Source: Bacteroidetes bacterium GWF2_33_16
GTDB taxonomy: Bacteria > Bacteroidota > Bacteroidia > Bacteroidales > UBA12077
Length of the DNA: 64,000 bases
Direction: 5' to 3'
Assembly: GCA_001768565.1 (NCBI GenBank)
Contig: MEOE01000013.1
Span: 62,001-126,000, forward strand
A program made the position numbers and the translations under genes. This document shows, one piece after another, positions 40,700-52,720 of the stretch. The stretch's first letter is position 1, and the number at the start of each line of letters is the position of its first letter. Below the pieces are notes generated by a model. That model had not been told where the DNA came from, did no database searches, and was given only the letters and a program-made list of their open reading frames with translations.

Positions 40700-41281
40700 A
40701 TGAACCATTTCCTAAAAAGAATAATTCCTCCCAACAAATGGAAATTTCCTGTTATCATTATTTTAGGTATTTTCACCGGTCTTTTTATCTATTCGTTTCA
40801 TATCTCCAAAGCAACATCTTATCTGTCGGATAATCCACAAACATGCATAAACTGTCATATAATGGTTCCGCAGTATGCTACATGGAATCACAGCTCTCAT
40901 CGGGAGTTTACATCATGTAATGAATGTCATGTACCTCAGGATAATTTCTTTTCACATTATTATTTCAAGGCAAAAGATGGCTTACGACATGCTACCATTT
41001 TTACACTTAGAGCCGAACCACAGGTAATTCATATTAAAGAAGCAGGCATTAATGTAGTGCAACAAAACTGCATTCGATGCCATGAACAATTAATTACTTC
41101 TGCGAGCAAAATAATGCATAATGAAGATCATCAGAAAAATAGAGAATCAAGGCTTTGCTGGGAGTGTCATAAAGAAGTTCCACATGGCAGAGTAAACAGC
41201 CTTTCAAGTACACCAAATGCATTTGCTCCCTTACCAAAAAGTCCTGTGCCGAAATGGCTAAAAGAAATTACTAAAAAATAA
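40700..41281 (+). CDS. nrfH: Cytochrome c nitrite reductase small subunit
   Basis: The 193-residue protein has one N-terminal membrane anchor (about residues 15-33) and four CxxCH heme sites: CINCH (49-53), CNECH (73-77), CIRCH (124-128) and CWECH (153-157). This matches the NapC/NrfH family. It oxidises menaquinol and feeds electrons to the pentaheme NrfA encoded 11 bases downstream, on the outer face of the inner membrane. Confidence 0.96.
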   Translation: MNHFLKRIIPPNKWKFPVIIILGIFTGLFIYSFHISKATSYLSDNPQTCINCHIMVPQYATWNHSSHREFTSCNECHVPQDNFFSHYYFKAKDGLRHATIFTLRAEPQVIHIKEAGINVVQQNCIRCHEQLITSASKIMHNEDHQKNRESRLCWECHKEVPHGRVNSLSSTPNAFAPLPKSPVPKWLKEITKK

Positions 41282-41292
41282 ATTATATACCT

Positions 41293-42795
41293 ATGAAACC
41301 AATTGGCGAACAAATAAAAGAAAAACCCTGGCTGGGATGGATCATTTTTCTATGTACCATCATAATAGTTTTCTTTCTAGGGTTACTGGCCTCATCTATT
41401 ATTGAGCGACGTGCCGAAGCTGTTTTTGCGTATACGCCCGAAGTCGAGCATTCACAGTGGGAACCACGAAACGAAATCTGGGGTAAGAATTTTCCGCGGC
41501 AATACAATCGTTATATGCAAACATCCGATACCAGTTTTGCAAGCAAATATAACGGTGGAGCTATGCGCGACATGCTCGAAGAAGACCCAAGGCTTGTTGT
41601 TCTTTGGGCTGGATATGCATTTTCAAAAGACTATTCACAAGGTCGTGGGCACTTTTATGCAATAACTGATATTCAACAGAACCTGCGTCCAGGCTCGCCA
41701 GTTGATGGAGCTAAAAGTCCTTTACCAAATACCTGCTGGACATGCAAAAGTCCTGATGTACCAAGAGTAATGCAGGAAGTAGGTATCGCCGAATTTTACA
41801 AAGGAAGCTGGGAAACCCGAGGACACGAAATAGTTAATTTTATTGGTTGTGCCGATTGTCATGATGCACAAAATATGAACCTGCGAATAACACGCCCTGC
41901 TCTTATCGAAGCCTTCGATCGCAGAGGTGTCGATATCAACAAAGTTAGTCATCAGGAAATGAGATCTTTGGTTTGTGCTCAATGCCATGTTGAATATTAT
42001 TTTCAAGGTGATGGAAAGTACTTGGCTTTTCCATGGGACAATGGTTTTACTGCCGAAAATATGGAAGAGTATTATGATAGTTACTCTTTTGCCGACTGGA
42101 CTCACTCAATTAGTAAAACACCCATGTTAAAAGCACAACATCCGGATTATGAGTTATTCATGACCGGCATTCATGCGCAACGTGGACTATCGTGTGCTGA
42201 TTGCCACATGCCATATATGAACGAAGGAGGACAAAAATTCACAGATCATAAAATTCAAAGTCCGTTAAATAACATTGCAAATACGTGCCAGGTCTGCCAT
42301 AGAGAAGAAACATCGAAACTTATTGCCAATGTTTATGAGCGACAAGATAAGATAAAGCAAAACCGCGATAAGCTCGAAGAACTTCTTGTTCGTGCACATG
42401 TTGAAGCAGGAAAAGCCTGGGAATTAGGTGCAAAAGAAACGGAAATGCAAGCTATACTTCAGAATATCAGGCATGCACAATGGCGTTGGGATTTTATTGC
42501 TGCATCGCATGGAGGATCGTTCCACAGTCCGATTGAAAGTGCCAGAATAATTTCAACAGGTATTGATATTGCACAGGAAGCAAGAATAAAACTAGCACGC
42601 CTACTTGCGACTTATGGATATAACAATGAGTTGCCTTATCCCGATATTAGCACAAAAGCAAAAGCTCAGAAGTTTATCGGTCTCGATACGGAAAAACTGC
42701 GTAACGAAAAAGATAGATTCTTAAAAGAAGTGATTCCACAATGGAAAAAACAAGCCGAAGAACGCGAAAAAAACTATGAAACAAAGAATATTTAA
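41293..42795 (+). CDS. nrfA: Ammonia-forming cytochrome c nitrite reductase
   Basis: The 500-residue protein carries the diagnostic active-site heme motif CWTCK (148-152), where lysine ligates the catalytic heme, and four CxxCH hemes: CADCH (186-190), CAQCH (228-232), CADCH (301-305) and CQVCH (332-336). The N-terminus is a hydrophobic helix (residues 14-34) that may stay uncleaved as an anchor. The enzyme reduces nitrite to ammonium with six electrons. With NrfH it forms a complete respiratory nitrite ammonification module, the electron sink used when oxygen is absent. A terminator follows. Confidence 0.97.
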   Translation: MKPIGEQIKEKPWLGWIIFLCTIIIVFFLGLLASSIIERRAEAVFAYTPEVEHSQWEPRNEIWGKNFPRQYNRYMQTSDTSFASKYNGGAMRDMLEEDPRLVVLWAGYAFSKDYSQGRGHFYAITDIQQNLRPGSPVDGAKSPLPNTCWTCKSPDVPRVMQEVGIAEFYKGSWETRGHEIVNFIGCADCHDAQNMNLRITRPALIEAFDRRGVDINKVSHQEMRSLVCAQCHVEYYFQGDGKYLAFPWDNGFTAENMEEYYDSYSFADWTHSISKTPMLKAQHPDYELFMTGIHAQRGLSCADCHMPYMNEGGQKFTDHKIQSPLNNIANTCQVCHREETSKLIANVYERQDKIKQNRDKLEELLVRAHVEAGKAWELGAKETEMQAILQNIRHAQWRWDFIAASHGGSFHSPIESARIISTGIDIAQEARIKLARLLATYGYNNELPYPDISTKAKAQKFIGLDTEKLRNEKDRFLKEVIPQWKKQAEEREKNYETKNI

Positions 42796-43292: not shown

Positions 43293-43637
43293 ATGAAAAT
43301 TAAAATTCTAATTATCCTAGCCACTGTATTCGTACTTTCTTGTCAGAACACTCCAAAAGAAAATACAGAGCAAACGGAAACACCAATTAATCAAGAAGTA
43401 TTGGCAAATGCTCAAAAAGTTGAAATCAATATTGAAGGAATGACTTGTACCGGATGTGAAAATACGATTCAGAATAAGATTAGTGAATTTGAAGGTGTCT
43501 ATTCGGTAAAAGCTTCTTACGAGCAAGGAATTGCAATATTAGAAATAGACTCAATCAAAGTCGATATTCAAAAAATTGAAGAAGCAATTAACGAAGTGGG
43601 ATATAAGGCTACTGGTCATAAAAAAATATATGAGTAA
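43293..43637 (+). CDS. Lipoprotein with heavy-metal-associated domain
   Basis: The 114-residue protein has a lipoprotein signal (MKIKILIILATVFVLSC) with lipidated C17, a Thr/Glu-rich linker, and an HMA domain with metal-binding GMTCTGCENTIQ. The domain is of the copper-chaperone fold. Its place just before the caa3 oxidase cluster suggests delivery or buffering of copper in the periplasm, though this is inference. Confidence 0.88.
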   Translation: MKIKILIILATVFVLSCQNTPKENTEQTETPINQEVLANAQKVEINIEGMTCTGCENTIQNKISEFEGVYSVKASYEQGIAILEIDSIKVDIQKIEEAINEVGYKATGHKKIYE

Positions 43638-43844: not shown

Positions 43845-44792
43845 ATGAACGAACAATCGGAAGGAAAAAACAAAAACAACCGTAGGCAGTTTTTAAAAAA
43901 TCTGGGTCTTATTGGAACCGGTGCAGTAGCTGGTGGTGCAGCTATATATTCAGGGTACAGGTTCGAAAAATCGAAAGATGAATCGGGCGAAAGAATTCGG
44001 GTATTAACCGCTGATAATAAATTAGTTGAAGTAGATAAATCTGCATTAAAAGAAATCACGCTTGATATAACTGAGCTTCAAAAACGTGGCCGCGAAGGAC
44101 TACCTGGTCATCGCTGGGTAATGGTTATCGACTTATCGCGATGTCGGAACGCACGCAAATGTATGGAAGCATGCCAGGGAGCTCATCAGCTAAGAGCAGA
44201 GCAGCATCATATCAATGTATTACAAATGCAGGACTCTCCTACTACAGCTCCATACTATATGCCAAAACCTTGTCAACATTGCGATAATCCGCCCTGCGTA
44301 TCAGTTTGCCCGGTTGATGCAACCTTTAAAAGAGCCGATGGAATTGTATTAATCGATAACGAACGATGCATTGGTTGCCGTTTTTGTATTGCGGCATGTC
44401 CTTATTCAGCAAGAGTATTTAATTGGTTCGATCCTAAAGATGCTGAACTGCATAAAGATCAGCTCTACGATGTTGAGCTGAATGTGCCACAGAAAAAAGG
44501 AACAATTTCAAAATGCCTTTTCAGTGCCGATAGGCTAAGAGTTGGAAAAATGCCATACTGCGTTTCGGCCTGTCCGAATGGTGTTTATTATTTTGGTGAT
44601 GAAAACGAAGATGCAGTTACTAACGGTACAACGAAAGAAACCTTTAGACTAAGCAAGCTTCTGCGTGATAATGCAGGTCATCTCCTAATGGAAGAATTAG
44701 GTACAAAACCAAGGGTTTATTATCTGCCACCAAAAAACAGACTTTTCGAATTTCCAGATAAAAATATTCTTGACAATGAACATCATACATAA
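43845..44792 (+). CDS. Tat-exported ferredoxin-type Fe-S subunit (NrfC/HybA-like)
   Basis: The 315-residue protein has a Tat signal (NNRRQFLKN at 11-19, then a hydrophobic stretch) and four cysteine motifs. Motifs II (C143, C146, C151, C155) and III (C175, C178, C181, C185) are complete. Motif I has C100, C106 and C110 but A103 where the second cysteine should be. Motif IV has C224, C239 and C243 but S227 at its second position. Two clusters may therefore be three-cysteine [3Fe-4S] types or altered. It should work with the NrfD protein encoded 25 bases downstream as the electron-carrying subunit of a quinol-linked complex outside the inner membrane. Confidence 0.9.
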   Translation: MNEQSEGKNKNNRRQFLKNLGLIGTGAVAGGAAIYSGYRFEKSKDESGERIRVLTADNKLVEVDKSALKEITLDITELQKRGREGLPGHRWVMVIDLSRCRNARKCMEACQGAHQLRAEQHHINVLQMQDSPTTAPYYMPKPCQHCDNPPCVSVCPVDATFKRADGIVLIDNERCIGCRFCIAACPYSARVFNWFDPKDAELHKDQLYDVELNVPQKKGTISKCLFSADRLRVGKMPYCVSACPNGVYYFGDENEDAVTNGTTKETFRLSKLLRDNAGHLLMEELGTKPRVYYLPPKNRLFEFPDKNILDNEHHT

Positions 44793-44817
44793 AATTTAAG
44801 TTTAAACTACTGCTATT

Positions 44818-46155
44818 ATGTCTGAAATAAAAAATGAATATATAAAACTAGATAAAAGTGCCGAACAGATAACTACTGATCTTATGCGCCCAGTAAACCT
44901 AAGTATTGGGTTTAAGGCATGGATGGCATTTCTGATAATTTCTTTGGCAGTTTGTATTTACGCGTATACTATTCAGCTTAATATTGGATTGGGTGTTACC
45001 GGATTGCGAGATTATGTATCATGGGGAATGTATATTGCAAACTTTGTTTTCTTTGTGGCAGCCAGTTTAATTGGTATGCTTATTGGCGCTGTACTTGGTT
45101 TAATCGGAATTAAATGGATAACTCCACTAGTGCGCATCGCAGAAATAATTGCAGTTGCCTTTGCTGCAGTTGCTGGATTGGTTATCATTTCAGATATGGG
45201 TCGGCCAGAAAGATTGCCATATGTTTTAATGTATGGCAGAATTCAATCACCAATTCTGTGGGATGTTACTGTTGTTACAACTTATCTGGTTATGAGCTTA
45301 TTGCTTTATTTTTTGCCACTAATACCCGATCTCGCAATTGGAAAAGATAAACTGCAAGGTGTACCTAAAATTCATAAAATCATTTATAACATTTTATCGC
45401 TAAACTGGGTAGGAAGTGAGGAACAAATTAAAATTATTCACAAATCTGTTCGCATTCTGCTTATATTAATTATTCCGGTTGCTTTTGCCATTCATACCGT
45501 TACATCGTGGCTTTTTGCAGTTACACCTCGTGCCGGATGGGACAGCACCATATTTGGACCTTACTTTCTAAGTGGTGCATTTGTAGCAGGCTCAGCAGCC
45601 GTTATTATTGCCATGTTCTTTTTTCAAAAAAACTACAAATTAAAAGATTATATTACTGATTTTCATTTTGATAAAATGGGAAAATTACTTTTTCTGGTAT
45701 CCATTGTTTATTTCTATTTTAATCTGAATGAATTTCTTGTTCCCGGATATAAACTGAAGCAAGCCGATGCTATTCACTTGCAAGCATTATTTAATGGTAA
45801 TTGGGCAAAACTTTTCTGGGCAACACAGATATTTGGTTTAATTCTTCCTTTGATTCTTTTATTATTCAGGAAAATGCGCAAAGCTTTTCCAATACTTATT
45901 ATCTCTATATTTGTTATTGCCGGTGCTTGGCTAAAACGGTATATTATCGTTGTCCCTACTCAAGAGCATCCTTACTTACCAATACAAAATGTACCCGATT
46001 ATTTTATGGGATATACACCAACGCTAATTGAAACAGCCATTACGGCAGCATCAATTATACTGGTTCTGATTATTATAACCATTTTATCAAAGTTTTTCCC
46101 TGTAATACCAATATGGGAAACAGTTCATGAGAATAAAACTGATCAGAAATCATAA
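44818..46155 (+). CDS. NrfD/PsrC-type quinone-interacting membrane subunit
   Basis: The 445-residue protein has about ten membrane helices and NrfD-family features such as GLRDYVSWGMYIANFVFFVAASLIGM at the start, ISDMGRPERLPYVLMYGR and PILWDVTVVTTYLVMS in the first half, and SWLFAVTPRAGWDSTIFGPYFLSGAFVAGSAA in the second. This longer NrfD type resembles the ActC/PsrC proteins that bind quinone without heme. With the upstream Fe-S protein and the downstream cytochrome c it probably makes a menaquinol:cytochrome c oxidoreductase. Spacing on both sides is short (25 and 12 bases). Confidence 0.92.
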   Translation: MSEIKNEYIKLDKSAEQITTDLMRPVNLSIGFKAWMAFLIISLAVCIYAYTIQLNIGLGVTGLRDYVSWGMYIANFVFFVAASLIGMLIGAVLGLIGIKWITPLVRIAEIIAVAFAAVAGLVIISDMGRPERLPYVLMYGRIQSPILWDVTVVTTYLVMSLLLYFLPLIPDLAIGKDKLQGVPKIHKIIYNILSLNWVGSEEQIKIIHKSVRILLILIIPVAFAIHTVTSWLFAVTPRAGWDSTIFGPYFLSGAFVAGSAAVIIAMFFFQKNYKLKDYITDFHFDKMGKLLFLVSIVYFYFNLNEFLVPGYKLKQADAIHLQALFNGNWAKLFWATQIFGLILPLILLLFRKMRKAFPILIISIFVIAGAWLKRYIIVVPTQEHPYLPIQNVPDYFMGYTPTLIETAITAASIILVLIIITILSKFFPVIPIWETVHENKTDQKS

Positions 46156-46167
46156 ATAGTACAAGAA

Positions 46168-47091
46168 ATGAAAAGAAGAATCATGATAAAATATTTAACA
46201 ATACTAATTCCGTTCGTATTTCTGTATATAAATTCTTATTCGCAAACCGAAGAATGGATTGTTCCTAAAGAAAAAAAAGAGGTTGTAAGTACATTTAATT
46301 TTACTGATGAAAATATAAAATCAGGAGAATCACTTTATCAAAAAAACTGTTTATCATGCCATGGTAATCCTACCAAAGGAAATTTTGCACCATTGCAACC
46401 ATCACCGGGCGATCCTGCATCAGAAAAATTCCAGAACCAATCCGATGGGTCGATGTTTTATAAAATTACCGAAGGTCGGGTTTTAATGCCTCAGTTTAAA
46501 AATATTTTGTCAGAAAAAGAACGATGGGAAGTCGTTGCATTCATTCGAAGTTTTAACAAAAATTACGTACAACCCGCATTAGCTAAAATCGATGAATTTA
46601 AAGGCGATGCCGTAAATATTGAAATTATATTCGATAAAGAAAATAGGCAACTTATCGCCAAGGCTATTGGCACAGTTAAAGAAAAAATCGAACCTGTAAA
46701 AAAGGCTGAAATGGTATTATTTGCAAAACGGTACTTTGGTAATATGCAAATAGATGAATCAAAACGAACAAACGAAGAAGGTATGGCTTTCTTTAGATTG
46801 CCTGAAGAATTGCCAGGCAACGATAGTGGTTATGTTGAGTTTATTGTAAGATTAAATGAATCAAGCTTTGGGGATATTCAGAAAACAGCATTAATACATG
46901 CTGGATTACCCAAAAATATGGAAAAATTAACTGATCAGAGGGCTATGTGGAATATTACCAGAAAAGCTCCGGTGTGGTTACTTATCAGTTATTTTGGCGG
47001 AGTTCTGTTTGTTTGGAGCTTTATTGTATATATTCTTTTACAACTTTATAAATTAAGAAAGATTGGCAGTGAAGTAACAAATAACGAGTAA
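46168..47091 (+). CDS. Membrane-anchored monoheme cytochrome c
   Basis: The 307-residue protein has a signal sequence (an internal ATG at 46183 is an equally good start). Its cytochrome c domain has CLSCH (61-65) and a likely methionine ligand in EGRVLMPQF near residue 106. A beta-sandwich-like domain spans about 130-235, and a C-terminal membrane helix (about 274-297) is followed by a basic tail. It therefore faces the periplasm while fixed to the membrane. Its position between the NrfD subunit and the oxidase genes makes it the likely electron carrier linking the two. The middle domain is not assigned to a family. Confidence 0.88.
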   Translation: MKRRIMIKYLTILIPFVFLYINSYSQTEEWIVPKEKKEVVSTFNFTDENIKSGESLYQKNCLSCHGNPTKGNFAPLQPSPGDPASEKFQNQSDGSMFYKITEGRVLMPQFKNILSEKERWEVVAFIRSFNKNYVQPALAKIDEFKGDAVNIEIIFDKENRQLIAKAIGTVKEKIEPVKKAEMVLFAKRYFGNMQIDESKRTNEEGMAFFRLPEELPGNDSGYVEFIVRLNESSFGDIQKTALIHAGLPKNMEKLTDQRAMWNITRKAPVWLLISYFGGVLFVWSFIVYILLQLYKLRKIGSEVTNNE

Positions 47092-47125
47092 ATACCTTAA
47101 TGGCAAATAACTAAAATCAAGCGAT

Positions 47126-47509
47126 ATGAAGAAATTAACTACTATTGGCCGTATACTTTTTGCTTTGCCCTTTGGAATTTTTGGATTAAACCATCTTTTA
47201 ATGATCGATTTTTACATTGGAATGCTAAGCACTTTTATTCCTGGTTCAAGCTTTACAATTATACTCACAGGTTTAGCGCTTATTGCGGCATCAATTAGCA
47301 TTATTATTAAAAAGTATATCAAGCTTTCGTGTATTCTTTTAGCCATTTTACTTTTCATTTTTATTATGACAATTCATGTTCCTAATTTGTTTAATGATAA
47401 AGAATCTATAATGGCACTGGTTGCTCTTTTAAAAGACACAGCCTTAATGGGTGGTGCACTGATGATAGCAGGGATATATCAAAAAGAAGAAAACGAAGCA
47501 GGAATTTAA
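47126..47509 (+). CDS. DoxX-like small membrane protein
   Basis: The 127-residue protein has four membrane helices and begins with RILFALPFGIFGLNHLLM, the usual DoxX-family opening. The HVPNL loop and a final MGGALMIAG helix fit that family. It may be a structural or quinone-related accessory of the neighbouring respiratory complex, but no function is proven. It is embedded in the operon. Confidence 0.7.
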   Translation: MKKLTTIGRILFALPFGIFGLNHLLMIDFYIGMLSTFIPGSSFTIILTGLALIAASISIIIKKYIKLSCILLAILLFIFIMTIHVPNLFNDKESIMALVALLKDTALMGGALMIAGIYQKEENEAGI

Positions 47510-47520
47510 CACATACTATT

Positions 47521-48294
47521 ATGAGAAAAATATTTCAAGCACTATTATTCATACTTTTAATTAGTTCTTTTCAAATAATCCTTGCGCAAGAACCAATTAC
47601 ACGTGATATTATCGAAGTTGGCTGGGTTGATCATTTAGGAGATACAATTCCTCTTGATTTGCAGTTTTTTAATGAGCAAAACGATACAGTTACATTGCGC
47701 CAGTTAATAGATAAACCCACCATTATCAACTTTGTTTACTTTAATTGTCCCGGATTATGCAGTCCTCTGCTCGAAGGGATTTCAAAAGCTATTGAAAGAA
47801 CAGATATGGATTTTGGTAAAGATTACCAAGTTATAACCATTAGTTTTGATATTACTGATACACCCGAAAAGGCAAAGCAGAAGAAGATAAATTTTATCCA
47901 GAATATAAGTAAAGAAAAAGCAAACCATTGGATTTACCTAACAGGCGAAAAAGAGAATATTTATAAAATTGCCGATGCTGTTGGTTTCAAATTCAAACAA
48001 ACAGGGTTGGATTTTGCTCATCCATCTGGTATTATTTTGGTTAGCCCACAGGGCAAAATTACACGATACTTATATGGACTTGAGTTTCTTCCTTTTGATT
48101 TAAAAATGGCAATTATCGAATCACAAAAAGGATTAGCTCGCCCAACTATAAATAAAGTTCTTGAATATTGTTTTAACTACGATCCCAGAGGACAAGGATA
48201 TACTCTAAGTGTTACAAGGATTACAGGTACTATTATTATTTTTATTGCTATTGTAGTTTTCTTAAGTTTAATAGTTAGTAGAAGAAAAAAATAA
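47521..48294 (+). CDS. SCO1/SenC family copper chaperone
   Basis: The 257-residue protein has a signal or anchor at residues 1-22, a thioredoxin-like domain with the copper ligands in FVYFNCPGLCSPLLEG (CxxxC) and the conserved histidine in LDFAHPSGIILVSP, and a C-terminal membrane helix (about 233-252). SCO proteins assemble the CuA site of cytochrome oxidase subunit II. Encoded 11 bases before subunit I, it fits that role. Confidence 0.94.
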   Translation: MRKIFQALLFILLISSFQIILAQEPITRDIIEVGWVDHLGDTIPLDLQFFNEQNDTVTLRQLIDKPTIINFVYFNCPGLCSPLLEGISKAIERTDMDFGKDYQVITISFDITDTPEKAKQKKINFIQNISKEKANHWIYLTGEKENIYKIADAVGFKFKQTGLDFAHPSGIILVSPQGKITRYLYGLEFLPFDLKMAIIESQKGLARPTINKVLEYCFNYDPRGQGYTLSVTRITGTIIIFIAIVVFLSLIVSRRKK

Positions 48295-48305
48295 AAAATC
48301 AATAT

Positions 48306-49937
48306 ATGAGTGGATTAACACAAGAACATGCTCAACCGAGCTATTTGGATCAACAGGGAAAATATAAAGGCCTTTTAGGCTGGATATTTTCGACCGATCA
48401 TAAACGGATTGCCTTGTTATACTTATATACCATTGTGGTATTTTTTCTGGTAGCCGTTGTTTTCGGTTTATTAATGCGAATAGAGCTATTCTTCCCCGGT
48501 CAGGATATTATGAGTCCGCAAACGTACAATGCCATGTTCACCGTACATGGGGTTATTATGATTTTTATAATTGTAATTCCGGGACTTTCAGCCGTTTTTG
48601 GCAATTTCTTTTTACCCATTTTGATTGGAGCCAAAGATGTTGCATTTCCGCGTTTAAACTTATTATCATGGTGGATATTCTTGTTTGGAGCAATTCTGGC
48701 CGTTCTTTCTCAGTTTGCAGGAAGTGGAGCTCCTGATACAGGATGGACTTTTTATGTTCCCTACAGTGCCGAAAGTGACTCAAATGTGGTAATTGCTTTA
48801 ACTGCCGCATTTGTGTTGGGATTTTCATCCATCTTAACCGGATTAAACTTTATTGTTACTATTCACAGAATGCGTGCTCCGGGAATGACATGGTTTAGAA
48901 TGCCCTTATTTCCATGGTCGCTTTACGCAACAGCCTGGATACAAGTTCTGGCAACACCAATTGTAGGTATTACCTTATTAATGGTTATTGCTGAAAGAAC
49001 ATTACATATTGGCTTCTTTGATCCTGCACTTGGCGGAGATCCAATACTTTTTCAACATTTATTTTGGATTTATTCGCATCCCGCAGTGTATGTTATGATT
49101 TTGCCTGCTATGGGCGTTGTAACTGAGATTTTCCCAACTTTTAGTCAGAAACCTGTTTTTGGATATACAGCTATCGCGATATCAAGTTTGGCAATTGCCG
49201 GTGTTGGGTATTTTGTTTGGGGACACCATATGTTTACATCAGGAATGAGCTATTCTGCCCGTTGGTTTTTCTCATTTCTTACATTTATTGTTGCTGTTCC
49301 GAGTGCCATAAAAGTTTTTAACTGGTTATCGACCATGTATAAGGGTTCAATAGATTTAAAACCACCTTTATTATATGCCATATCTTTTATCTTTTTATTT
49401 ATGATTGGTGGTTTAACCGGATTGGTATTGGGTTCACTGGCAACCAATGTTCAAGTTCACGATACTGCTTTTGTTGTTGCACATTTTCACTATATTATAT
49501 TTGGAGGAATGGGTTTCGGCTTTTTTGCCGGAATGCATTATTGGTTTCCCAAAATGTATGGCAGAATGTATAATATAAAACTTGCCAATATTGCATGGGG
49601 AATACTGTTTACAGGATTTAACTTCTTATATTTTCCACAATTTGTTATTGGAATGCAGGGAATGCCTCGCCGATATTTTGATTACCTGCCCCAATTTCAG
49701 GTAGGCCATTTTATTTCGAGTATTGGTGCTTTTATTTTGGTTACGGGTATCATTTTAATGATTTATAATCTTATTAGAAGTGCTCACAAGGGAGAAGTTG
49801 CCCCGGCAAATCCCTGGCGTGGCAGTACGCTCGAATGGCAAATTTCATCTCCTCCACCATTGGAAAACTTTGATGAGATACCTGTGATTACAGGAAAACC
49901 TTACCAGTATAATACCGATGATTTAGGAAACGAATAA
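48306..49937 (+). CDS. ctaD: Cytochrome c oxidase subunit I (A2-type heme-copper oxidase)
   Basis: The 543-residue protein has twelve helices and all heme-copper oxidase ligands: MFTVHGVIM for the low-spin heme, WIYSHPAVYVMILP with the CuB histidine and cross-linked tyrosine, VWGHHMFTSG for CuB, and VVAHFHYIIFGG for the heme irons. The YSHPAV motif in place of the glutamate-bearing GHPEV marks the A2 subfamily, as in Thermus caa3. It reduces oxygen to water and pumps protons. The other subunits follow in order III, IV, II. Confidence 0.97.
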   Translation: MSGLTQEHAQPSYLDQQGKYKGLLGWIFSTDHKRIALLYLYTIVVFFLVAVVFGLLMRIELFFPGQDIMSPQTYNAMFTVHGVIMIFIIVIPGLSAVFGNFFLPILIGAKDVAFPRLNLLSWWIFLFGAILAVLSQFAGSGAPDTGWTFYVPYSAESDSNVVIALTAAFVLGFSSILTGLNFIVTIHRMRAPGMTWFRMPLFPWSLYATAWIQVLATPIVGITLLMVIAERTLHIGFFDPALGGDPILFQHLFWIYSHPAVYVMILPAMGVVTEIFPTFSQKPVFGYTAIAISSLAIAGVGYFVWGHHMFTSGMSYSARWFFSFLTFIVAVPSAIKVFNWLSTMYKGSIDLKPPLLYAISFIFLFMIGGLTGLVLGSLATNVQVHDTAFVVAHFHYIIFGGMGFGFFAGMHYWFPKMYGRMYNIKLANIAWGILFTGFNFLYFPQFVIGMQGMPRRYFDYLPQFQVGHFISSIGAFILVTGIILMIYNLIRSAHKGEVAPANPWRGSTLEWQISSPPPLENFDEIPVITGKPYQYNTDDLGNE

Positions 49938-49947
49938 AACGTATTAC

Positions 49948-50562
49948 ATGGAAAACACGATTAGTCATATAGTACATCGCGATGACGAAGCATCGAAAAT
50001 GGGAATGTGGATTTTTATTTTCACCGAGCTGCTGCTCTTTGGTGGATTATTTCTCGTTTATGCTGTTTTCAGAGCCAAATATTCCGAAGATTTTCATATT
50101 GCTGCAATGGAACTGAATGCCTTTGTCGGAACTGCAAATACAGTTATTCTGTTAATCAGCAGCATGACTGTTGCTATGGCTATTACTGCAATTCAGAAAG
50201 GAGACAAAGGTTTATCAATAAAACTTTTGGCAGTTACTCTTCTGCTGGCAACTTTTTTTATGATAAACAAATATTTCGAATGGTCTGGGAAAATTCATCA
50301 CGGATTATACCCAGGATCCGAGGTAATGCTTGGTTTAAACCGAGGTCAATTGCTTTTCTTTGGTTTATATTATGCCACCACTGGATTACATGCACTACAC
50401 GTATTTATTGGCATGGCAATATTGGCTGTTATGCTTTTCAGAATAAAAAGTGGAAAAATTACACAAGATAATTTCGTACATCTCGAAAATGGAGGTTTGT
50501 ACTGGCATTTAGTTGATTTAATATGGATTTTCTTGTTTCCACTATTATACCTTATTACCTAA
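49948..50562 (+). CDS. ctaE: Cytochrome c oxidase subunit III
   Basis: The 204-residue protein has five membrane helices, with family features KMGMWIFIFTELLLFGGLF, KYFEWSGKIHHGLYPGS and YYATTGLHALHVFIGMAILAVM, and ending in ENGGLYWHLVDLIWIFLFPLLYL. It is the five-helix short form. It lies 10 bases after subunit I. Confidence 0.95.
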   Translation: MENTISHIVHRDDEASKMGMWIFIFTELLLFGGLFLVYAVFRAKYSEDFHIAAMELNAFVGTANTVILLISSMTVAMAITAIQKGDKGLSIKLLAVTLLLATFFMINKYFEWSGKIHHGLYPGSEVMLGLNRGQLLFFGLYYATTGLHALHVFIGMAILAVMLFRIKSGKITQDNFVHLENGGLYWHLVDLIWIFLFPLLYLIT

Positions 50563-50573
50563 AAATATCTTAT

Positions 50574-50861
50574 ATGGAGAAAGAACATAAACATCATATT
50601 TCAAGTTATTTTGCGCATGGGACAGTATTGGTTACACTACTTGTTTTAACAGTAATAACAGTTGTAGTGGCTGGTCTTAAGCTAGGTCCGTTATCGGTTT
50701 TTGTTGCATTAATTATTGCTTCGATAAAAGGAACAACAGTTTTAACCTACTTCATGCATTTGAAATATGACAAACCCATATACCGCATTATGGTTTTTGG
50801 TGTTTTTTTACTTTTTGCTCTAATTATTGGAATTACATTTATTGATTATGTATTCCGCTAG
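50574..50861 (+). CDS. ctaF: Cytochrome c oxidase subunit IV
   Basis: I take the ATG at 50574 (MEKEHKHHISSYFAHG); an ATG at 50523 in the same frame lies inside the subunit III gene and is less likely. The 95-residue protein has three membrane helices and the typical IKGTTVLTYFMHLKYDKP segment of bacterial subunit IV. Confidence 0.92.
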   Translation: MEKEHKHHISSYFAHGTVLVTLLVLTVITVVVAGLKLGPLSVFVALIIASIKGTTVLTYFMHLKYDKPIYRIMVFGVFLLFALIIGITFIDYVFR

Positions 50862-50896
50862 TTTAAATTACTTGTATAACATTAAAAAAATATAAC

Positions 50897-51817
50897 ATGT
50901 ATTCAGGTGCATCAAATTTTGTCGAAGGAGTAGATAAAGCATTTATGCTTATTATGGGCATATCCATATTCTTCCTTATTGGCATAACTACCGTAATGAT
51001 TATTTTCCTATTTAAATATTCGCGAAAAAAGAATAAAAAACCATCAACAAATGATGGTAGTATAAAGTTAGAAATAATATGGACAGCAATACCATTGGTA
51101 CTTGTAATGTTAATGTTTTATTATGGTTGGGTTGGCTATGCACCCATGCGAAAAGTCCCTGATGATGCCATGCTGGTGAAAGTTACAGGAAAAATGTGGC
51201 AATGGATTTTCGAATACGAAAATGGAAAAACATCTCCTGATCTGGTAATTCCTTTAAATAAGCCAGTAAGGCTGGATTTATACTCACCCGATGTTAACCA
51301 TAGTTTATTCATTCCTGCCTTTAGAGTTAAGGAAGATGTGGTTCCCGGATACGACAATTATCTTTGGTTCACACCTTATTATATTGGTGATTACGAAATT
51401 CTGTGTGCTGAATATTGTGGTTTAATGCACTCTTATATGACTGCCAAAGCAAAAGTTGTTTCGCAAGAAGAATTTGATGTCTGGCTAGCTGATTTTACGC
51501 CTATAGAAAAGGAATCTGAACATCCCGGATTATTGATCATCAATGCAAATGCATGCACTGCATGCCATTCGCTCGATGGAACCAGACTCGTAGGTTCCTC
51601 CTTTAAAGATTTGTGGGGAGCCAAAAAGATAGTTTTGGTTAAAGACAATGAAAAAGAAATAACGGTGGATGAGCAATATATTAAAAAGTCAATATACGAT
51701 CCCGACGCTGAAGTAGTTCAAGGTTTTAATAAGGGCCTGATGCGTTCATATACTGGAGTAATCTCCGAAGAAGATGCAAACAAAATTGTTGAATATCTTA
51801 AAACATTGAAAAAGTAA
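50897..51817 (+). CDS. ctaC: Cytochrome c oxidase subunit II with fused cytochrome c domain
   Basis: The 306-residue protein has two N-terminal membrane helices, then a CuA domain with DVNHSLFIPAFRVKEDV and EILCAEYCGLMHSYM (the Cys, Glu, Cys, His and Met ligands), and then a C-terminal cytochrome c domain with CTACH near residue 220 and a likely methionine ligand in NKGLMRSYTG. The fusion defines a caa3 oxidase and gives direct entry for electrons from a cytochrome c. Placing subunit II last, after subunit IV, is unusual compared with the common II-I-III-IV order. Confidence 0.95.
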   Translation: MYSGASNFVEGVDKAFMLIMGISIFFLIGITTVMIIFLFKYSRKKNKKPSTNDGSIKLEIIWTAIPLVLVMLMFYYGWVGYAPMRKVPDDAMLVKVTGKMWQWIFEYENGKTSPDLVIPLNKPVRLDLYSPDVNHSLFIPAFRVKEDVVPGYDNYLWFTPYYIGDYEILCAEYCGLMHSYMTAKAKVVSQEEFDVWLADFTPIEKESEHPGLLIINANACTACHSLDGTRLVGSSFKDLWGAKKIVLVKDNEKEITVDEQYIKKSIYDPDAEVVQGFNKGLMRSYTGVISEEDANKIVEYLKTLKK

Positions 51818-51844: not shown

Positions 51845-52720
51845 TTGAATTCAATAAAAAACCGGGGTTCACAAATCCTCACCTTAATTCGTATAGGGGT
51901 TTCGCTGGCAGTAACATTTTCTGCAGCAGTCGGATATATTGTTTCATCTGGCCATATTGATTCAAAAATAATATATGTATTATCGGGTGTTTTCCTCCTT
52001 GCTGGTGGAGCCTCAGCACTAAACCAATTTCAGGAAAGAGAAACGGATGCCTTAATGAAAAGAACAAAGAACCGTCCTATTCCATCTGGGAAAATCTCTC
52101 CATTAACCGGAGTTTTAATTTCAGAGTTGTTTTGTTTTATCGGATTAATACCCTTGATTTTAATAGGTATTATTCCGGCCCTGTTGGGAATATTTAACAT
52201 CTTGTGGTATAATGGATTATATACATATCTCAAGAAAAAAACTGCTTTTGCTGTTGTTCCAGGTGCAATAACAGGTGTTGTTCCTTTATTAATAGGTTGG
52301 ACTGCTGCTGGTGGATATTTTCTTGATCCAACAATTATTTTTATTTCATTTTTTATTTTTATGTGGCAAATTCCACATTTCTGGTTGCTTCTTATGCAGC
52401 ACAACAGAGATTATCAAAATGCTGGACTGGGAACACTTTACAAATCATTTTCTAATAATCAAGTAAAAAGAGTATTGTTTGCCTGGATTATTGCAACTTC
52501 ATTAGCAACCTTGTTTTTTCCTTTTTTTGGAATAATTACCAACAGTATCCTGATAACTATAATTATTGTATTAAGCATTCTGCTTATAATAACATTTTAC
52601 TTTGTTCTCTTTTATAATAAAGATAAAATCATTTTTAAGTTCGCATTTGTATGCATAAATGCATTTCAGATCTTAGTATTACTCATACTTATTGCTGAAA
52701 ACATTACCTTTAAAATTTAA
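51845..52720 (+). CDS. ctaB: Protoheme IX farnesyltransferase (heme O synthase)
   Basis: The 291-residue UbiA-family membrane protein has the prenyl-diphosphate/Mg site QFQERETDALMKRTKNRPIPSG and the second site in LLLMQHNRDYQNAGLG, with about nine helices. It makes heme O, the precursor of the heme A of the adjacent oxidase. No ATG is available near the start. The frame is closed upstream by the ctaC stop codon, so TTG at 51845 is the best start. Its end overlaps the convergent kinase gene by 11 bases. Confidence 0.92.
   Translation: MNSIKNRGSQILTLIRIGVSLAVTFSAAVGYIVSSGHIDSKIIYVLSGVFLLAGGASALNQFQERETDALMKRTKNRPIPSGKISPLTGVLISELFCFIGLIPLILIGIIPALLGIFNILWYNGLYTYLKKKTAFAVVPGAITGVVPLLIGWTAAGGYFLDPTIIFISFFIFMWQIPHFWLLLMQHNRDYQNAGLGTLYKSFSNNQVKRVLFAWIIATSLATLFFPFFGIITNSILITIIIVLSILLIITFYFVLFYNKDKIIFKFAFVCINAFQILVLLILIAENITFKI

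Follow-up and report, generated by a model that had tools for sequence, protein, structure and literature searches.

An Fe-S/NrfD/cytochrome c trio beside a caa3-type oxidase as a probable complex III substitute in Bacteroidales

The gene run and its products

The subject of this report is a run of genes within a window of 64,000 nucleotides (contig MEOE01000013.1, positions 62,001 to 126,000, forward strand) from the Bacteroidales genome Bacteroidetes bacterium GWF2_33_16. Genes for an iron-sulfur (Fe-S) protein, an NrfD protein and a cytochrome c, here called the trio, are followed on the + strand by those for a small membrane protein, an SCO-family copper chaperone, the oxidase subunits in the order cox1-3-4-2, and ctaB. 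The original prediction, made from the sequence, saw in the trio a minimal menaquinol:cytochrome c oxidoreductase acting without a bc1 complex or alternative complex III (ACIII). Its placement as a stand-in for complex III ahead of a caa3 oxidase proved well supported by comparative genomics; the activity itself, its direction, the order of carriers and the contact with subunit II we infer from sequence.

The trio consists of an Fe-S subunit of 315 amino acids with matches to Fer4 families, a twin-arginine (Tat) signal and four cysteine motifs (43845..44792), an NrfD subunit of 445 amino acids (44818..46155; PF03916, 115 bits) and a membrane-anchored monoheme cytochrome c of 307 amino acids in the Cytochrome_CBB3 family (46168..47091). 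Next come a four-helix membrane protein of 127 amino acids (47126..47509), DoxX/MauE-like at best, and the SCO-family chaperone (47521..48294; SCO1-SenC, 45.6 bits). The oxidase is encoded by subunit I (48306..49937; COX1, 504.8 bits; TIGR02891, 674.7 bits against a cut-off of 670.75), subunit III (49948..50562; COX3, 72.8 bits), subunit IV (50568..50861; caa3_sub_IV, 72.1 bits against a cut-off of 37.25) and subunit II with a C-terminal cytochrome c domain (50897..51817; COX2, COX2_TM and Cytochrom_C; TIGR02866, 165.4 bits against a cut-off of 147.7). The ctaB gene for heme O synthase (51845..52720; UbiA, 150 bits; cyoE_ctaB, 168.2 bits, below the cut-off of 210.3) is part of the run and lies beyond the end of the span first described. 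Open reading frames (ORFs) and family matches confirm the predicted order from the Fe-S gene through SCO to cox2 on one strand, and the order is not a product of chance because it recurs in dozens of relatives.

Stop-to-start gaps from the Fe-S gene through cox3 measure 25, 12, 34, 11, 11 and 10 bases, followed by 35 bases between cox4 and cox2 and 27 between cox2 and ctaB. The predicted spacing of 10 to 36 bases holds for most junctions (10 to 35) but not for cox3-cox4, where the gap is 5 bases with an internal ATG at 50568, or an overlap of 40 bases if the longest cox4 ORF, starting at 50523, is used. From the gaps, the run may form a single transcript. Scans for promoter-like sites (35, against a mean of 49.6 in shuffled sequence) and terminator-like sites (12, against 6.6) were uninformative, and the Bacteroides-type promoter pattern occurred at chance level with no match close to the run.

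Because subunit II joins COX2 and cytochrome c domains, the enzyme is assigned to the caa3 group of cytochrome c oxidases; in addition, subunit IV is of the caa3 type and subunit I scores above the CtaD cut-off. In Flavobacterium, ACIII contacts the oxidase by means of a five-helix subunit III (excerpts of PMC8361435). The Cox3 of the window, with 204 amino acids, has five hydropathy helices, which would allow a supercomplex with the trio but does not show one.

The Fe-S subunit carries its twin-arginine signal at R13 and R14, which are invariant in 32 sequences. The four predicted cysteine motifs are present, yet they hold 14 cysteines only, since the second cysteine is missing from both motif I and motif IV; these 14 are invariant in 112 aligned Fe-S proteins, near-copies included. 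In 105 of the 112, another residue takes the place of the second cysteine of motif I. At the corresponding position of motif IV, 79 proteins, comprising the window, oxidase-linked loci and their nearest kin, have serine, and 33, comprising the more distant modules described below (L036-L064) and L107, have cysteine. In ActB proteins from 12 loci it is the second cysteine of motif III that is changed, to threonine in 11 and to serine in one. By sequence, the best match of the Fe-S protein in the PDB is PsrB. Its predicted structure is poor (mean pLDDT 65.6), and the fold of this model would place it near PsrB (Z 17.1, tied with ArrB) and ActB (Z 14.6-15.6). Cysteine motifs usually pair I with IV and II with III, and with that pairing the two three-cysteine clusters of the trio, predicted to be of the [3Fe-4S] type, would lie at the wire's far end. 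Excerpts of PMC5928083 place the sole [3Fe-4S] cluster of Rhodothermus ActB, FeS1, on the membrane side by the quinol site, with heme I of ActA about 11 Å away. Since the trio has no ActA heme near the membrane, its electrons would travel the full length of the wire before reaching the cytochrome.

Turning to the NrfD subunit, its profile scores 214-224 bits against ActC chains. The ten helices first assigned to it rest on hydropathy, by which 11 windows are counted here and mostly 9-10 in relatives. The quinol residues of ActC are His139, Ser164, Asp169 and Asp253, with Arg395 as the gate (excerpts of PMC8076601). By alignment to ActC chains, with ActC numbering transferred by spacing and the Rhodothermus chain alignment not itself shown, the window equivalents are Asp126, Ser144, Asp149, Leu232 and Arg374. 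All of these except Leu232 are invariant in 13 sequences, and aspartate at the first quinol position is also reported for DsrP, QrcD and Wolinella PsrC in the same excerpts. Asp126, Ser144 and Asp149 are presumed to form the menaquinol site and Arg374 its gate. Ser144 and Asp126 together with a four-motif Fe-S partner are features of an NrfD-type (CISM-like) quinol oxidoreductase.

The cytochrome c comprises a signal, a cytochrome domain, a beta-sandwich (residues 148-244) and a C-terminal helix (269-306), and its structure is predicted with a mean pLDDT of 89.0. The cysteines of the CxxCH motif (61-65), His65 and Met107 are invariant in 33 sequences. Matches of the model in the PDB rest on the cytochrome domain, with Roseiflexus ActE first and an unrelated c552 nearly equal; the beta-sandwich, never searched on its own, has no clear match there. 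The small membrane protein is probably ancillary. Its description as DoxX-like is weak, as the window protein belongs to no Pfam family and a DoxX match, below cut-off, was found in three of six homologues.

Alternative routes within the genome

The genome, which spans 4.33 Mb in 36 contigs and is listed as 100% complete, was searched as a whole with family profiles. PF03916 has a single match, the NrfD of the run, which also finds only itself when used as query, and PF00115 has a single match, the cox1 of the run, making this the sole heme-copper oxidase found. ActD (PF11821) has no match in the whole genome; the same search recovered ActD in four of four genus-mates, which had been preselected for ActC-like matches. 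Likewise, the bc-type cytochrome b model PF00033 has no match genome-wide and does match 8 of 14 control genomes. No second NrfD or ActF was detected genome-wide by PF03916, a model whose sensitivity for ActF was not checked, and no multiheme ActA occurs within the run, the genome-wide search for ActA not having been made. The statement that the trio occurs without bc1 or ACIII is thus borne out genome-wide: ActD and bc-type cytochrome b are both absent, and the PF03916 match stands alone.

Recurrence and co-occurrence in relatives

Alignment of the NrfD matched at least 593 stretches in named genomes, of which the best 80 loci were used as a top list and not as a sample. Within these 80, the trio stands beside a caa3 oxidase in 53, a cbb3 oxidase in 8 and both in 3, so that 64 have an adjoining cytochrome c oxidase; seven more end within 2.7 kb downstream. 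The 53 trio-caa3 loci encode SCO and the cytochrome without exception, the Fe-S protein in 51 (the other two start at a contig end) and the small DoxX-like protein in 40. Cultured organisms with the trio-caa3 arrangement are Marinilabilia rubra and Geofilum rubicundum, and those with trio-cbb3 are species of Marinifilum, Ancylomarina, Labilibacter and Saccharicrinis.

Some loci depart from this layout. In L146, L179 and L205, NrfD genes at 69, 68 and 64% to that of the window (tblastn) adjoin MFS transporter genes, and no Fe-S or cytochrome gene was found near them. L138, L150, L154 and L167 pair NrfD with an anchored cytochrome, with no Fe-S gene found nearby and with a gene for 975-977 amino acids upstream on the other strand, which in L138 encodes an FAD-oxidase/Fer4 protein. 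In G335, the Fe-S gene is broken into two ORFs (L097:2995-3884).

Co-occurrence was examined in 78 related genomes searched for the window NrfD, ActD, PF00115 and PF00033. Trio-type NrfD, defined by at least 50% identity, was found in 13 genomes, ActD in 18, and a match at caa3/cbb3 level (PF00115, at least 380 bits) in 23, two of these matches being partial. Among the 23 oxidase genomes, 9 have the trio only, 11 ActD only, 2 both and 1 neither, whereas the 55 genomes without an oxidase-level match divide into 2, 5, 0 and 48. In other words, either module is present in 22 of 23 oxidase genomes against 7 of 55 others (Fisher p 2e-12, uncorrected for relatedness). The trio and ACIII also tend to exclude each other within the oxidase genomes (p 0.0006), as they do among the 16 oxidase genomes of the order that lie outside the genus of the window, each from another family (trio alone in 8, ActD alone in 5, both in 2 and neither in 1; p 0.035), again uncorrected for relatedness. 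By its Fe-S motif the module of G332 is of the distal type; recounted accordingly, the 23 genomes become 9, 12, 1 and 1, and the exclusion values 0.0001 and, outside the genus, 0.009, with the same reservation on relatedness. PF00033 matches occur in 6 of the 78 genomes, three of them oxidase-bearing: G332 (473 aa), G338 (913 aa) and G323 (928 aa). The latter two are long fusions, and G338 is a trio-only genome.

In addition, 18 named-locus genomes (12 trio-caa3 including that of the window, 5 trio-cbb3 and 1 with no adjoining oxidase) were searched for ActD and PF00033. ActD is present in none of the 12, four of the five and not in the one. With G320, another trio-caa3 genome that lacks it, and G353, which has it, 13 of 14 trio-caa3 genomes overall are without ActD. 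The best 80 named loci and the 78 related genomes overlap, as L156, L188 and L194 are contigs of G355, G353 and G320. In Marinifilum flexuosum both modules are present, with ACIII adjoining the caa3 oxidase and the trio adjoining cbb3. The original prediction had proposed a search for genomes with the trio beside cox but lacking petABC and actABCDEF, and its outcome was positive as judged by ActD and PF00033; the cultured trio-caa3 strain Geofilum rubicundum JCM 15548 (G371), for example, matches neither model.

At each of the four loci examined among the seven PF00033 loci of the named-locus genomes, a Rieske-like gene and an eight-CxxCH cytochrome stand next to cytochrome b. Loci of this kind in some Bacteroidales (L235:3650-7753, L236:7096-11394, L237:3860-8002 and L238:3790-7853) encode cytochrome b, a Rieske-like protein and an eight-CxxCH cytochrome of about 770-820 amino acids; in Marinilabilia rubra, Pfam identifies cytochrome b, Rieske, cytochrome c554 and TPR repeats.

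Apparent exchange of the trio and ACIII within a genus

None of the 19 genus-mates, several of them incomplete, has a trio-type NrfD, and seven have ActD. At all five of their loci that were examined (G300, G304, G306, G310 and G313), ACIII is divergent from an adjoining cox1-3-4-2. In a quick Cox1 tree of 68 rows, with SH-aLRT support only, the Cox1 of the window falls in a 24-row clade made up of trio-linked rows only (99) and is closest in identity to that of Marinilabilia (81%). The five genus-mates have a clade to themselves (100) inside a mostly ACIII-linked group (84). Cox1 of the ACIII-linked locus L211 branches basally on the trio side (84), as does the unlinked caa3 of G347, G141 and G172. 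SCO and CtaB of the window, on the other hand, group with those of the genus-mates (SH-aLRT 99 and 99). The DoxX-like protein is nearest to theirs (support 58), and Cox2 does not group with theirs. Since Cox1 clusters by partner and SCO and CtaB by genus, the trio and the oxidase core share a history different from that of the assembly genes. Across 37 loci, distances of trio and oxidase subunits correlate at r 0.78-0.84, compared with 0.79-0.86 among oxidase subunits and 0.74-0.81 for SCO and CtaB; this correlation is only supportive because linked genes should correlate anyway.

Comparison with known complexes

ACIII is similar to the trio in its ActC-type NrfD, the B2-fold four-cluster domain of ActB, an ActE-like monoheme cytochrome, a position beside caa3 and the same proposed job. 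It differs in that the trio has no ActD, no second NrfD match, no molybdopterin-like B1 domain and no multiheme ActA in the run. The ActB proteins of relatives have 927-1087 amino acids, against 315 for the trio protein with its Fer4 families only, and the three-cysteine sites fall in motif III of ActB but in motifs I and IV of the trio. For want of ActD, ActF and a fused ActB, the trio is not a member of ACIII; it is a variant among NrfD-type quinol oxidoreductases. ACIII and the distal type of trio module share a contig in certain genomes of this class (L058:11645-19145, G100).

The Cbc4 complex of Geobacter (CbcSTU), with multiheme CbcS and NrfD-like CbcU, shares the three-part makeup. In excerpts of PMC11434368, Cbc4 comprises a c-type cytochrome, an Fe-S protein and a membrane protein, CbcU being termed a b-type cytochrome, and is proposed to be a menaquinol:cytochrome c oxidoreductase, the activity proposed for the trio. 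Cbc4 serves extracellular electron transfer, whereas the trio lies beside an oxidase. SirCD, NrfCD and PsrBC likewise pair an Fe-S protein with NrfD, but the trio run has no catalytic reductase subunit and does have a dedicated anchored cytochrome and oxidase genes.

Within the open-licence PMC literature, with subscription papers and supplements outside its scope, no description of the trio beside caa3 or cbb3 in Bacteroidales was found. The excerpts of PMC8076601 do not list it among NrfD complexes, and those of PMC10564751 and PMC9145763 do not describe it. Excerpts of other papers suggest an ActC-like NrfD as a cytochrome reductase in SAR324 (PMC4782131), report further NrfD clusters that fit no described complex (PMC10732223), and describe for Labilibaculum cbb3 alongside another cytochrome c oxidase, with no electron donor named in the excerpt (PMC5760507).

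Competing interpretations

Several observations weigh against the trio as a dedicated complex III substitute. Nine of the best 80 loci have no oxidase beside the trio, and the fragmented genomes G334 and G352 carry a trio without a caa3/cbb3-level match. Exclusivity is breached by G353, which combines trio-caa3 with ActD, and by PF00033 matches in 7 of the 18 named-locus genomes, including 2 of the 12 with trio-caa3; a cytochrome b-like match of 910-913 amino acids also occurs in the trio genomes G338 and G172. The relatedness left in the Fisher tests counts on the same side, as does the coverage of the genome-wide searches, to which ActA, ActE, cytochrome bd and other quinol-cytochrome c routes did not belong. 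Leu232 of the NrfD replaces Asp253 of ActC, and distal relatives of the trio adjoin Fnr, DUF5777 and EB_dh genes.

These distal modules occur in other Bacteroidia (L036-L064, for example L041:7923-14215 and L056:8959-15777) and combine an Fe-S protein and NrfD with an anchored protein that carries no heme; a small monoheme cytochrome is encoded separately close by. Some are in tandem, and their neighbors include Crp/Fnr regulators, a DUF5777 barrel, EB_dh and YceI. They are perhaps an undescribed, anaerobic use of the same core.

The trio could accordingly be a general quinol dehydrogenase that, with its cytochrome c, supplies several reductases of the periplasm in addition to the oxidase. The oxidase-free modules and loci just described fit such a role, as do G347, G141 and G172, in which the trio is not linked to caa3. 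It is nonetheless an improbable reading, for motif IV separates the oxidase-linked and nearest Fe-S proteins from the distal ones, the heme of the former is fused to the anchor, unlike in the distal modules, and most of the trio-caa3 genomes checked have no ActD.

Reverse flow or a part in sulfur metabolism, with the trio acting as a cytochrome c:menaquinone reductase in the manner of DsrOP or Qrc, appears very unlikely. The closest NCBIfam models do point that way, with DsrO for the Fe-S protein at 193.4 bits, under its cut-off of 200, and DsrP followed by QrcD for the NrfD, yet the latter reach only 126.6 of 350 and 58.6 of 570 bits. The run holds no DsrM, DsrK, DsrJ or QrcA/B gene, which were not searched for genome-wide, and quinol oxidation is favored because the trio is linked to an oxygen-reducing enzyme.

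Upstream of the run lie an HMA-domain protein (43293..43637, +; HMA, 51.4 bits), which is also found near the ACIII-caa3 locus of genus-mates (L207, L208), and genes that, from their sequences, we take to be yidD, nrfH and nrfA. The NrfH-like (40700-41281) and NrfA-like (41293-42795) genes have four CxxCH apiece and suggest that this organism also reduces nitrite to ammonium. With these genes about 1 kb upstream on the same strand, and a match of the Fe-S protein to the NrfC-type model TIGR03149 at 111 bits, the Fe-S and NrfD proteins might be the NrfCD quinol dehydrogenase of this nitrite reductase, the nearness of cox being accidental. This was set aside as scarcely credible: the cut-off of that model is 377.6, an nrfH-like quinol dehydrogenase already adjoins nrfA, and none of the 80 best loci, some on short contigs, has NrfH/NrfA within 12 kb on the same strand. 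A remnant of a broken ACIII was set aside as well, given that the genome has no ActD and that trio NrfD and ActC form separate clades in a quick tree (SH-aLRT only, with several long branches), in which four rows labelled caa3 or distal by the neighbor rule are mislabelled and fall in the ActF clade.

Proposed function and implications

The trio is thus probably a minimal menaquinol:cytochrome c oxidoreductase that replaces complex III and feeds the caa3 oxidase of the same run. This role is drawn from the absence of alternatives among those sought, the recurrent linkage to caa3 or cbb3, the near-exclusion with ACIII and the clustering of Cox1 by partner. Menaquinol would be oxidized at the periplasmic side of NrfD, and its electrons would enter the Tat-exported Fe-S subunit, pass along the wire of clusters and arrive at the tethered cytochrome. 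Its single heme would then reduce the cytochrome c domain of subunit II, from which electrons would continue to CuA, heme a and the oxygen site.

A wider reading, for which the balance is about even, would make the trio a third kind of complex III. It would be a three-subunit menaquinol:cytochrome c oxidoreductase, possibly proton-translocating by way of its single NrfD and physically joined to caa3 or cbb3, whose electrons run the full length of the Fe-S wire before they reach one heme. Such a complex would occur widely in Bacteroidales, and trio and oxidase core together would be swapped with ACIII as a cassette. A genus with ACIII-caa3 and trio-caa3 in different species offers a natural experiment on complex III swapping. 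Having one NrfD and one heme, the trio would also be a far smaller system than ACIII, which in Rhodothermus has two NrfD and six hemes, for testing proton pumping by NrfD. If the proposal is true, respiration in many oxygen-using Bacteroidales depends on an equivalent of complex III to which automatic annotation would give the name of polysulfide or tetrathionate reductase.

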